A stretch of DNA of 64,000 nucleotides from Deferrivibrio essentukiensis (GTDB lineage Bacteria; Chrysiogenota; Deferribacteres; Deferribacterales; Deferrivibrionaceae). Below the pieces are notes generated by a model. It searched no databases and was not told where the DNA came from. It worked only from the letters and a program-made list of their open reading frames with translations. Positions 14,989 through 18,758 of this stretch are shown here, in pieces (position 1 is the first letter of the stretch; the number at the start of each line of letters is the position of its first letter). The DNA is taken from positions 1-64,000 of the forward strand of contig NZ_JAJAFU010000012.1 in the NCBI RefSeq assembly GCF_020480685.1, read 5' to 3'. The translations under genes and the position numbers were made by a program.

Positions 14989-15172
14989 AAAAAGCCCCCG
15001 AATTGCCGTGTCCATAGTCCATTTGCAGCCCTGGCTAACCAGGTTCTTTGGGAATCACAGGTGCTTTAGGCTTCCTACTACAAGGTAGGCCTGCACACCA
15101 CACCTCGTATCATCCCATATTTTAGAGGTGTTGGCTCCAAATTTCCTATTTCATCACGAACAATTCAGGGGC
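14989..15172 (-). ncRNA. ssrS: 6S RNA (SsrS)
   Basis: 6S RNA binds the sigma70 RNA polymerase holoenzyme and mimics an open promoter. On the minus strand a 12-bp closing stem pairs GCCCCTGAATTG (15172-15161) with CAATTCGGGGGC (15005-14994), with a single G-U pair, followed by TTTTT. In between are the AACCTGGTTAGCCAGGG hairpin near the 3' side and the GTTCG and CACGGC(A) elements seen next to the closing stem in other 6S RNAs. The size (about 180 nt) and position, directly behind zapA, match the proteobacterial ssrS locus. The 5' end overlaps the zapA stop codon, so it is probably cut from a zapA transcript. Exact ends are inferred from the stem. Confidence 0.85.
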
Positions 15173-15441
15173 TACCCTTTTAATATACTATCTATTTTGT
15201 TCTCTATTTCACTAATTTTATCAATGCTCTTATCAATATCCTTTTTTAGTATCAAATATTCAGCAGCAATATCAAAAGCAGCCATAACAGCTATCTTAGA
15301 AGTAGTCAACACATTCATACTATCTTGCATCTCACGCATCTTTTTATCGACAAAATTAGCAATGGAAGCAACTGTCTCGCTATCCATATCAGTTTTAAGC
15401 CTGTATTTATTCCCGTAAATGTAAACATCAGAAATTTGCAA
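15172..15441 (-). CDS. zapA: Cell division protein ZapA
   Basis: ZapA bundles FtsZ filaments at the division ring. The N-terminal domain (VYIYGNKYRLKTDMDSETVA) followed by VDKKMREMQD and a hydrophobic-then-coiled-coil helix (KIAVMAAFDIAAEYLILKKD) is the ZapA pattern. Length 89 aa is typical. The start is TTG at 15441, 8 bases after GGGAG. It lies 11 bases behind the small coiled-coil gene and directly ahead of 6S RNA. Confidence 0.9.
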   Translation of the reverse strand: MQISDVYIYGNKYRLKTDMDSETVASIANFVDKKMREMQDSMNVLTTSKIAVMAAFDIAAEYLILKKDIDKSIDKISEIENKIDSILKG

Positions 15442-15757: not shown

Positions 15758-17434
15758 CTATCCGAGTCCAAACTCTCCTAACAACTTATCAATCTCTTCT
15801 TGAGATGATGTGTCTTCACTGATAGAATCTGCTGCCTGTATTTTAGCGTAACCTAAAATAGTTCCAAGTCTTACCCCTATTTCCTCAATCTTCTTAATCA
15901 CTTTTCTTGCTTTCTGCTCTGTAATATCCTGAAATTCCAATGCTTGCAATATATTAAACCCAAGCTCCTCAGCACTTTTCAATTTATCTTCCACACTATC
16001 AATAAGTTCATCAAATTTTTCGACATCACCCTTTTGTATTACCTTTTCGATATTTCCCATCTTTTCATTAAGCTCAGCGAAAAAATTAGACATTTTATCC
16101 GCTGCTTCCATCAAATTAATAGTAGCTTCTTCTGTATACTCGTTAACATTTTCAAGAGATTTGGCAATATGAGGTACATCCTTATTTGAATCTGCCACGG
16201 AAGGTTCAACATTGTCTATTTTTTGTTTTGTTTCAAAAATAAGTTTTAAAAGCTCCCCAATCTCACCTTTGATATTAATATCTATCTCTTTTGCTTCCCC
16301 TCTAATTATCTTATTTGCAAGAGATTTTAACTCCTGCAATGAATCTCTTTCAATAATAATTTCATTCTTTTGACTATCGGCACTTTCATTTTCTACAAGC
16401 TGCTCTTGAGCAACGGTTGAGACATCCTCCTCACCGACATCAATTATCTTTTTTTTTTCCTCTTCTTTTTTTCGTTTAAGAAGCTCTTCAGTTTCTTTTT
16501 CTCTTTTGGCAAGCTCTTCTGCAATAAGTCTGTCAAGGTCATCCTGGTCAACGTGAGTTGCTTCAGGCGATATAGTAGAGTTTGCTTGCGTCAAAGCATC
16601 ATTTAAAATATCTTCTACGTCATTATTTGAACTATTTAACTTTTCCTCTTTTTTCTTTTTTAATAGCTCTTCTGTCTCTTTTTCCCTTTTTTCAAGCTCC
16701 ATTGCAATCAGCTTATCAATATCATCAATCATATCTGTCTGATTTTCTTCTTCAGAATCGACAGATTCGCTCGCCACACTTATCTCTTCTTCCTCTTTTT
16801 CTATTTCACTATTTACTTCAGAAACAGCACTTAATTCACTAGCTTCAACAGTATCAGAGACTTCAGTAAAATTTTCGTCAGACTCTTCATACTCGTTTAA
16901 ATCTTCAACCTGTCCCTGAGATTTAACTATTTTCTTCCTTAGGTCACTGGTCAAGTTATCATCGTTATAAACAACTCTATCTATATCAAGAAGAATAATA
17001 AGTCTTTTCAAATATTTACATATACCAAGAATATATTCTTGCCCCACCGCACCAACCAATGGGGGTGTAGGCTCAACAATGCTCTTATCTATTCTGATTA
17101 CTTCAGTAACCTCATCAACAACAAAACCAATATTTTCCTTTTCAAACTTAACAACAATTATCCGTGTTTTTTTATCAAAATCAGACTTATCAAGCTCAAA
17201 CCTTACTCGCAAATCAACAACAGGAATGACTTTACCTCTTAAATTAATAACACCAAGTATATAAGAATCCATCCTAGGGACAGATGTAATCTCGATAAGT
17301 CTTATAATCTCTTGAATCTTCAACACATCAATTGCATACTCCTCATCACCAAGCTTGAAGCCTACAAGCTGAATGCTATCCTCATCTTTAAGCTCTTGTA
17401 CATCTTCAATGTAAAGATTCTGTTCATTATTCAT
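15758..17434 (-). CDS. Chemotaxis fusion protein: CheW domain + linker + CheZ-like phosphatase domain
   Basis: A 558-aa protein with three regions. Residues about 19-155 are a CheW domain (LVGFKLGDEEYAIDVLKIQE, GVINLRGKVIPVVDLR), which couples receptors to CheA. Residues about 160-365 are a charged, low-complexity linker with a 29-residue repeat at 236-264 and 297-325 (DDIDKLIAMELEKREKETEE; DDLDRLIAEELAKREKETEE). Residues about 385-535 are helical and resemble CheZ: LQALEFQDITEQ carries the DxxxQ catalytic motif (Asp503, Gln507) expected of CheZ, the phosphatase of CheY-P. The tail SQEEIDKLLGEF (544-555) resembles the C-terminal CheY-binding peptide of CheZ. Neighbours are a MinD/FlhG-like ATPase and a DUF2062 gene upstream. 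The CheZ assignment is by motif, not by search. Confidence 0.8.
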   Translation of the reverse strand: MNNEQNLYIEDVQELKDEDSIQLVGFKLGDEEYAIDVLKIQEIIRLIEITSVPRMDSYILGVINLRGKVIPVVDLRVRFELDKSDFDKKTRIIVVKFEKENIGFVVDEVTEVIRIDKSIVEPTPPLVGAVGQEYILGICKYLKRLIILLDIDRVVYNDDNLTSDLRKKIVKSQGQVEDLNEYEESDENFTEVSDTVEASELSAVSEVNSEIEKEEEEISVASESVDSEEENQTDMIDDIDKLIAMELEKREKETEELLKKKKEEKLNSSNNDVEDILNDALTQANSTISPEATHVDQDDLDRLIAEELAKREKETEELLKRKKEEEKKKIIDVGEEDVSTVAQEQLVENESADSQKNEIIIERDSLQELKSLANKIIRGEAKEIDINIKGEIGELLKLIFETKQKIDNVEPSVADSNKDVPHIAKSLENVNEYTEEATINLMEAADKMSNFFAELNEKMGNIEKVIQKGDVEKFDELIDSVEDKLKSAEELGFNILQALEFQDITEQKARKVIKKIEEIGVRLGTILGYAKIQAADSISEDTSSQEEIDKLLGEFGLG

Positions 17435-17443
17435 AAATAACTC

Positions 17444-18328
17444 CTAAAGTTTTTCAAATACGCAATCTCTAACATCATCAAAAAAATCTCTATAATTCTT
17501 ATCAACAACATTATTGTAATATGGAAGCAACCTTTTCAAATTATCACTCACACCAATATCATACGGTATAAAACCGATTTTTTCAATAGATATGCCCAAG
17601 TACTTCTTAGATACATTTTCAAAACCGTAAAAAATATTTAATTCCTTTTTAAATTTTAACATATTTAAAACAATACCTACTTTGTAATTGCCGATCAAAT
17701 GCCCTACCTTGTCTTTGACAGCCGTATCTATCTGTCCCAAATCATCCAATATATCAAAAACCTTTTGATAGTTCATACTTCTACTTCTCAATTTCTTGCA
17801 AATATTTTCAAACCTCTTGTCACCCATAAGGTATTTTTCTATTTTTCTGTATATGGAAACCTTTAAAAAACCATACGAATTTTCAATAGATGTAGGTTCG
17901 CTTGTCATAATTAACAGTTTTTTTTCGGAAAAATTAAAAAAATCTATCATATTGTAACTTGTACCTGCTCCAAGATCTAAAACTACAAACCTATATTTGG
18001 TTCTTTTAAGATAATTTAAAATTTTCAACTTTTCAAAATTATTTATATGGGCCATCCCTAAAACGTCACCCGCACCACCAACAAAGTCAACATTGGCAGG
18101 AGTTTTTAATATCACATCTTCTATGGGAAGTTTCTCTCTGATAAAATTATACAGACTCTTTCCCGGAGCTTTTAAACCCACAAAATTATGAAGATTTGCT
18201 CCGCCCAAGTCACCATCTACAAGTAAAACGCTCTCACCCTTATTTGCTATAGACATAGCAAGATTTGCAGCAAAAAAACTTTTGCCAACGCCACCTTTTC
18301 CGCTTGCAATAGCAATAATCTCAGCCAA
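17444..18328 (-). CDS. MinD/FlhG-like P-loop ATPase
   Basis: This is a MinD/ParA-superfamily ATPase. The deviant Walker A GKGGVGKS is at residues 10-17, the second signature lysine region lies near the start, switch I is VDGDLGGANLHNF and Walker B is FVVLDLGAGTS. The form resembles FlhG (YlxH/MinD2) proteins that place flagella or chemosensory parts. Membrane-targeting helix: the C-terminus (DFFDDVRDCVFEKL) is weakly amphipathic, so this is uncertain. It lies 9 bases before the CheW-CheZ gene and overlaps the DUF2062 gene by 8, which suggests a role in positioning or regulating the chemotaxis apparatus (inference). No flhF or flagellar gene is in the window. Confidence 0.85.
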   Translation of the reverse strand: MAEIIAIASGKGGVGKSFFAANLAMSIANKGESVLLVDGDLGGANLHNFVGLKAPGKSLYNFIREKLPIEDVILKTPANVDFVGGAGDVLGMAHINNFEKLKILNYLKRTKYRFVVLDLGAGTSYNMIDFFNFSEKKLLIMTSEPTSIENSYGFLKVSIYRKIEKYLMGDKRFENICKKLRSRSMNYQKVFDILDDLGQIDTAVKDKVGHLIGNYKVGIVLNMLKFKKELNIFYGFENVSKKYLGISIEKIGFIPYDIGVSDNLKRLLPYYNNVVDKNYRDFFDDVRDCVFEKL

Positions 18329-18758
18329 CCACTGCCCCTCTGTATCTCTTAATTATAAAGTAAACAGCAAAATATGTTATAATTGCTGCAAAAACTCCAA
18401 CTATATGGCATCCAACAAAAAAAGGCCATAATACTTGTTTAACATTATGTAGCATAATATCCCAGTTAAGCTTTGTCCAGTCCAAAACCATATCAACATT
18501 AGTATCGGTCAAAATCAACCCAACTTTATAGCAAAAAGCATATATAAATATAAGTGTAATAGGATTTGTGATATAAGCACCTAAAATTAAAGGATAAATT
18601 GGCAGATTCAAAAAATATGAAAAAGCAATAGCAAGGACTGTATGAAATCCTACGTAAGGGGAAAAACCAATGATCATCCCTATAGCTGAAGAAAGCGCAA
18701 CTATATGGGGTGATCTATCTATTGTCAGCAGCCTTGCCAGCTTATCACGTATTTTTAT
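18321..18758 (-). CDS. DUF2062 membrane protein with apparent AUA start
   Basis: A small membrane protein of the DUF2062 family, function unknown, often associated with polysaccharide or envelope genes. The conserved core is SPHIVALSSAIGMIIGFSPY, GFHTVLAIAFSYFLNLPIYP and GAYITNPIT, followed by a C-terminal membrane helix. The first ATG (18677) falls inside this core and would remove IRDKLARLLTIDRSPH, which belongs to the family. The frame is open back to the lon stop, but holds no ATG, GTG or TTG. A strong ribosome-binding site (AAGGGGG, 18770-18764) lies 5 bases before an ATA at 18758, so I place the start there (145 aa). A second ATA at 18752 is possible. The gene lies between lon and the MinD-like gene. 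Confidence 0.75.
   Translation of the reverse strand: MKIRDKLARLLTIDRSPHIVALSSAIGMIIGFSPYVGFHTVLAIAFSYFLNLPIYPLILGAYITNPITLIFIYAFCYKVGLILTDTNVDMVLDWTKLNWDIMLHNVKQVLWPFFVGCHIVGVFAAIITYFAVYFIIKRYRGAVVG

Follow-up and report, generated by a model that had tools for sequence, protein, structure and literature searches.

A conserved A10 run points to two products, probably through transcriptional slippage, from a CheW-CheZ fusion gene of the Deferribacterota

The stretch of Deferrivibrio essentukiensis DNA analysed here (64,000 nucleotides, hereafter the window) carries a gene, cheWZ, in which a CheW domain, a linker with two repeats and a CheZ-like domain are read as one protein. A first-pass annotation made from the sequence had described this fusion and its peptides; it overlooked a run of ten adenines at 16449-16458, which splits the gene between linker repeat 2 and the CheZ part. 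What, then, does the gene produce, and what is such a run doing in the middle of it? The features that bear on this question are the following.

15758..17434, minus strand: cheWZ, a single open reading frame with exact bounds; zero-frame product of 558 aa, CheW - linker - CheZ
16970..17371, minus strand: CheW domain, residues 22-155 (Pfam PF01584)
16643..16726, minus strand: linker repeat 1, DDIDKLIAMELEKREKETEELLKKKKEE, residues 237-264, a FliM/CheZ-tail-like motif and a charged helix
16592..16615, minus strand: EDILNDAL element, residues 274-281, between both repeats (alignment conservation)
16460..16543, minus strand: linker repeat 2, DDLDRLIAEELAKREKETEELLKRKKEE, residues 298-325
16449..16458, minus strand: A10 run on the sense strand, directly after repeat 2, the proposed transcriptional slippage site
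16440..16446, minus strand: hidden stops beyond A10, TAA at 16446-16444 if an A is lost and TGA at 16442-16440 if an A is gained
15830..16264, minus strand: CheZ domain, residues 391-535 (Pfam PF04344; profile matches to E. coli CheZ)
15914..15928, minus strand: catalytic DxxxQ, Asp503 to Gln507 (EFQDITEQ), invariant in alignments
15776..15805, minus strand: C-terminal CheY-P-binding-like tail SQEEIDKLLG, residues 544-553 (hhalign, motif scan)

The CheW half is matched by PF01584 with E 1.2e-38 (132 bits), and CheW chains in the PDB match as well. N64, R66 and G67 of its NLRG segment are invariant in an alignment of 18 fusions, a conservation that is only suggestive of a role in joining CheA and receptors in the array. 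For the other half, the Pfam CheZ model applied to the 558-aa protein alone gives E 3.8e-6 and 27.4 bits, under the 30.7 cut-off, while in the genome-wide search cheWZ scores 35.1 bits, above it. Searched against the PDB, a profile of the family's C-terminal domain scores highest with E. coli CheZ (1kmi; E 2.7e-7). Furthermore, hhalign aligns cheWZ with E. coli CheZ at E 9e-6 and as far as the last residues, pairing EFQDITEQ with DFQDLTGQ and the tail SSQEEIDKLLGEFGL with ASQDQVDDLLDSLGF. The DxxxQ residues, which had been placed correctly at Asp503 and Gln507, are invariant in the 18 fusions, and the pair (D143 and Q147 in E. coli) is also invariant in 20 sequences that include the split genes described below. 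AlphaFold predicts helices at 414-468 and 471-536 of the CheZ part in a low-confidence model (pLDDT 55-61); a PDB fold search with one low-confidence AlphaFold model gave no match below E 0.2, and we draw nothing about the fold from these models. Lack of a CheZ match or of conserved DxxxQ residues would have refuted the earlier description; with CheZ found by Pfam, profile and hhalign alike and DxxxQ conserved, the reading of the gene as a CheW-CheZ fusion is borne out, and it is well supported that its C-terminal part is a CheZ-type domain and a predicted phosphatase. cheWZ is like E. coli CheZ (PF04344, 1kmi) in the DxxxQ motif and a C-terminal SQxxIDxLLxxFG tail, and possibly in a long helical hairpin, and differs from it in that the CheZ part stands behind CheW and a repeat linker.

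The three peptides reported earlier are indeed present in the window protein, at 237-244, 298-305 and 546-553. The resemblance of the tail to the end of CheZ and the start of FliM also holds, as SQEEIDKLLGEFGL can be aligned both to the extreme end of E. coli CheZ and to the start of the organism's own FliM (SQEEIDALL). This FliM begins MADILSQEEIDALLST, and the organism's own separate CheZ ends QDIVDALLKEFGN. A strict motif, [QSN][DE][DE][ILV]Dx[LM][LIVM], occurs only twice in a background of 161,141 residues, both times at a FliM N-terminus, and is found in most of 42 cheWZ genes, usually at repeat 2 and in the tail. The count of three stands for the window protein and does not extend to all relatives: a sister class has three or four linker repeats of the form DLDDLIAxELxKREAED, and in the f6 and f7 families the FliM-like tail is replaced and absent from the cheWZ C-terminus. 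Between the repeats, D279 of the EDILNDAL element is invariant in the family alignment and L277 and A280 are nearly so.

The specificity of the motif, together with the FliM-like core of the linker repeats (SQDDLDALI), suggests that the linker motifs are candidate docking sites for CheY or CheY-P. The SQEEIDALL core of the CheY-P-binding peptide at the FliM N-terminus recurs in the cheWZ tail and linker repeats; unlike FliM, cheWZ holds several copies inside a CheW protein, and each linker copy is continued by a charged helix with the conserved sequence ELxKRExETxEL, which FliM is without. This helix, and the fact that minD is a conserved neighbour of cheWZ, would fit repeats that bind a partner other than CheY, such as CheA or the MinD-like ATPase encoded next door, or that pair with each other in a coiled coil. 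Such a partner is possible, but we rather doubt it, given the FliM-like core and a strict pattern that is confined to FliM in the background set.

A phylum-wide search with follow-ups yielded the 42 cheWZ orthologues, and the 41 that bear a run span 18 genera and two classes. The gene occurs throughout the class, including Calditerrivibrio, Denitrovibrio, Mucispirillum and Seleniivibrio, and presumably also Deferribacter and Geovibrio; it is further found in three sister-class genomes of Chrysiogenia-like relatives (G001-G003), where the protein measures 775-867 aa. A scan of genome contigs with one peptide pattern gave fusion matches in Deferribacterota only; since it rests on that single pattern, other phyla may still have CheW-CheZ fusions. 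Our literature search found no report of a CheW-CheZ fusion, nor of CheW or CheZ with transcriptional slippage; the two proteins are without mention in the main text of PMC3711429 and in the accessible part of PMC5009743.

In most loci cheWZ closes a conserved set of three genes, in the order DUF2062 - minD - cheWZ, whose first two members in the window are as follows.

18321..18677, minus strand: DUF2062 membrane protein gene, first of the set
17444..18328, minus strand: MinD/ParA-like ATPase gene, directly upstream of cheWZ and in the same direction; a neighbour in nearly all cheWZ loci

A role of these neighbours in array placement is possible. A CheW-like protein beside a ParA-type ATPase is typical of the ParC/ParP array anchor, and cheWZ with its conserved MinD-like neighbour may be a relative of that system, although its CheW domain stands at the N-terminus with CheZ behind it. 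Contig C10 of the same genome has another MinD-like gene (FlhG-like), beside a flhF-like gene. On the other side of cheWZ, a 6S RNA (Rfam RF00013, 91 bits) is found at 14991-15174 of the window, minus strand, between a zapA-like gene (15172-15441) and rarA.

Besides the fusion, a separate canonical cheZ is retained in the genome, next to cheY, fliM and cheA (contig C10; L002/L010); further chemotaxis genes are an orphan cheW, a cheV-like gene and a second CheA cluster, which is type IV pilus-like. The fusion had been proposed to turn a free terminator of the signal into an array-bound one. As the free cheZ is retained, cheWZ would add an array-bound phosphatase without replacing the free one. 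This genome thus has both a canonical CheZ, as E. coli does, and a fused CheZ that is predicted in a fraction of the cheWZ products. Elsewhere, the sister class has a further CheZ-like protein of 294-319 aa (L071 8528-9469; L072 7558-8517; L073 8468-9352) with a FliM-like start (DQSDIDALLAQFE) and a related motif at its end. The small genomes G004 and G005 still have a CheW protein (L142 5627-7081; L143 5655-6776), with one repeat-like motif in G004 (DEMIAMELALRE); no CheZ part was found in them.

We now turn to the run itself. The window sequence reads GAGG-A10-GATAATTGATG, and the predicted products are 329 aa long with A9, 558 aa with A10 and 331 aa with A11. In 41 of the 42 orthologues, with gene GC from 0.30 to 0.57, the last run of at least ten A lies in the linker; G001 has the fusion and no such run. 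The runs extend from A10 to A14, with exactly A10 in 32 of 41, and most stand directly after repeat 2, the exceptions being G050 (between the repeats) and the sister class (just before the CheZ part). In 40 of 41 genes, each of the two non-fusion frames meets a stop no more than 20 nt from the run, against 25% upon synonymous shuffling of the same proteins. It should also be noted that the f7 (g14, g15) and f5 (g5, g8) genera have a second run, of A9-A11, after linker repeat 1 (L048-L050, L074-L080, L057-L059, L061-L065), which is possibly a second slippage site giving a third product.

Five relatives seem to have separate cheW and cheZ genes, and all of them break at 10-14 A after repeat 2. 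In eight genomes, from four genera and three families, the DNA is out of frame exactly at the run while the CheZ half is intact: G017, G018 and G019 (g5), G030 (g10), G032 (g11), and G035, G036 and G037 (g13). A ninth, G034 (g13), shows the same split by eye. The out-of-frame genomes all keep the LEFQDIT motif of CheZ. The fusion is restored by one A fewer in G017, a single-contig genome that we take to be Denitrovibrio acetiphilus, and in G030, and by one A more in the other six computed. The frame state is fixed by clade, g15 being all in frame and g13 and g5 all out of frame, a pattern that neither random sequencing error nor phase variation would readily produce. We also considered whether the CheZ half might be translated from a start of its own and rejected this: its frame shows no stop codon as far back as the run, and the earliest possible starts are scattered, some of them inside the CheZ domain, so that internal translation does not explain the split genes.

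Programmed slippage is best known from dnaX, certain secretion genes and genes of insertion sequences. Across the 2.36-Mb genome, a sense A10 within coding sequence occurs in cheWZ and in only two other genes, one of which is dnaX.

L085 1458-3041 (contig C4), minus strand: dnaX, with a sense A10 at codon 477 of 527
L089 992-2242 (contig C20), plus strand: NfeD-like gene for a 416-aa protein, the third coding A10, with shifted-frame stops 19 and 8 nt downstream

The stops of this dnaX lie 6 and 10 nt after the run, in both shifted frames. An A9-A10 run is present near the expected place of dnaX in 14 of 14 relatives examined, most of them with close stops in both frames, and dnaX is out of frame at the run in G040 (L157) and G035 (L158). 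Experiments have established slippage for Thermus dnaX, at nine A/T and with both frames closed by stops (PMC5009743), and out-of-frame (two-ORF) dnaX genes are predicted to use slippage (PMC3711429). cheWZ resembles Thermus thermophilus dnaX (tau/gamma) in its A-run, in the stops in both shifted frames and in predicted short and long products with a common N-terminus, a layout shared by the organism's own dnaX. The two differ in that dnaX is a replication gene whose slippage is known from experiment, whereas cheWZ is a signalling gene for which slippage is predicted. The Denitrovibrio and g13 cheWZ genes are like the two-ORF dnaX genes (PMC3711429), as the zero frame ends at the run and slippage would be needed for the long product; in cheWZ, unlike there, the state switches within one phylum.

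Given these observations, we consider it likely that cheWZ is a two-product chemotaxis gene that relies on RNA polymerase slippage on the conserved A10. The polymerase would slip on the run and yield a pool of transcripts of mixed length. Those with ten A's, plus or minus multiples of three, would give the 558-aa CheW-CheZ fusion, and the remaining ones a short protein of about 330 aa that ends right after linker repeat 2. The gene very probably makes such a short product besides the fusion; since it ends after repeat 2, it would comprise CheW and two FliM/CheZ-tail-like motifs and would lack the phosphatase. CheW would bring either form into the receptor array, such that a set fraction of array positions carries a tethered CheZ, with the ratio of short to long form deciding how many, and the motifs would hold CheY or CheY-P close to both kinase and phosphatase. 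Computation shows the domains, the DxxxQ and FliM-like motifs, their conservation and a mark of selection on the run and its stops; we infer that the polymerase slips and how often, that the products join the array and bind CheY, and that the CheZ part acts as a phosphatase.

Nearly identical products are predicted if programmed ribosomal frameshifting on A_AAA_AAA/G, and not transcriptional slippage, were responsible, and A-runs are slippery for ribosomes too. We regard this as unlikely. A heptamer would be enough for the ribosome, yet the length stays at ten or more; restoring the fusion requires shifts of opposite sign in different genomes; and no conserved RNA structure was found downstream of the run in eight orthologues (z -2.5 to +0.6). 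Run length, shifts of both signs and the lack of a common RNA structure thus favour transcription over ribosomal slippage, although the latter could be an addition to it.

It is quite unlikely that cheWZ is a plain fusion in which the run arose by chance from a linker rich in Lys, and in which sequencing errors in the homopolymer or gene decay put some copies out of frame. The majority of genomes are in frame, as this would predict, runs of A11-A14 are hard to sequence, and synonymous shuffling often recreates an A10 near the site (P = 0.09-0.67 per genus) because the linker is rich in Lys and Glu. Multiplied over 17 genera, these per-genus values come to 3e-10, a figure that is too strong because the genera share ancestry and are not independent; the shuffle is itself conservative, as its codon pool includes the run. 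Since shuffling recreates A10 so readily, we build our case on four observations: the run is conserved across the genera taken together, other genes avoid such runs, stops close both shifted frames, and whole clades are out of frame. In 41 of 42 genes the run consists of A only, despite AAG accounting for 30% of the Lys codons upstream in the same genes and occurring in over half of the KK pairs there. Among 479 other genes from the same loci, with synonymous shuffling as the expectation, runs of at least ten A were observed 0 times against 10.0 expected, and A9 runs 3 times against 19.0; hence, such runs are selected against elsewhere. Moreover, an accidental run would hardly account for the closure of both shifted frames in 40 of 41 genes, for the same out-of-frame A10 throughout genus g13 (three genomes computed plus G034), or for a CheZ motif left intact in out-of-frame genomes.

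Finally, phase variation, in which slipped-strand replication would change the run length in the DNA and toggle the CheZ half between cells, could draw on the A10 to A14 range and the eight off-frame genomes, but is highly improbable with a clade-fixed frame state (g15 in; g13 and g5 out) and 32 of 41 runs at exactly A10, and would be senseless for dnaX, which shows the same design and split state.

That slippage serves as a phylum-wide device which fixes how many array adaptors, all bearing several FliM-like candidate docking motifs, have a tethered CheY-P phosphatase and how many lack it, is a proposal to which we give as much credence as doubt. As both forms have several docking-like motifs, signal termination at the array would then hinge on the rate at which the polymerase stutters on A10, and species with the second run after repeat 1 would have three products.

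In E. coli, it makes a difference to signalling where CheZ stands with respect to the array. Its location is governed by CheA-short, a second product of the array gene cheA that recruits CheZ to the receptors. CheZ binds CheA at the pole (PMC7750401). The E. coli arrangement relies on an internal start and non-covalent binding, whereas cheWZ is a direct fusion to CheW.

Taken together, on our reading cheWZ would bring a known way of recoding and familiar domains into a combination and a pathway that are new. ORF calling splits the gene in at least eight genomes of the phylum. If our reading is true, cheWZ would be the first chemotaxis gene with programmed slippage, as far as the literature search showed, and a different phylum appears to reach the same end as E. 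coli by covalent fusion of CheZ to CheW, with the dose tuned by slippage.
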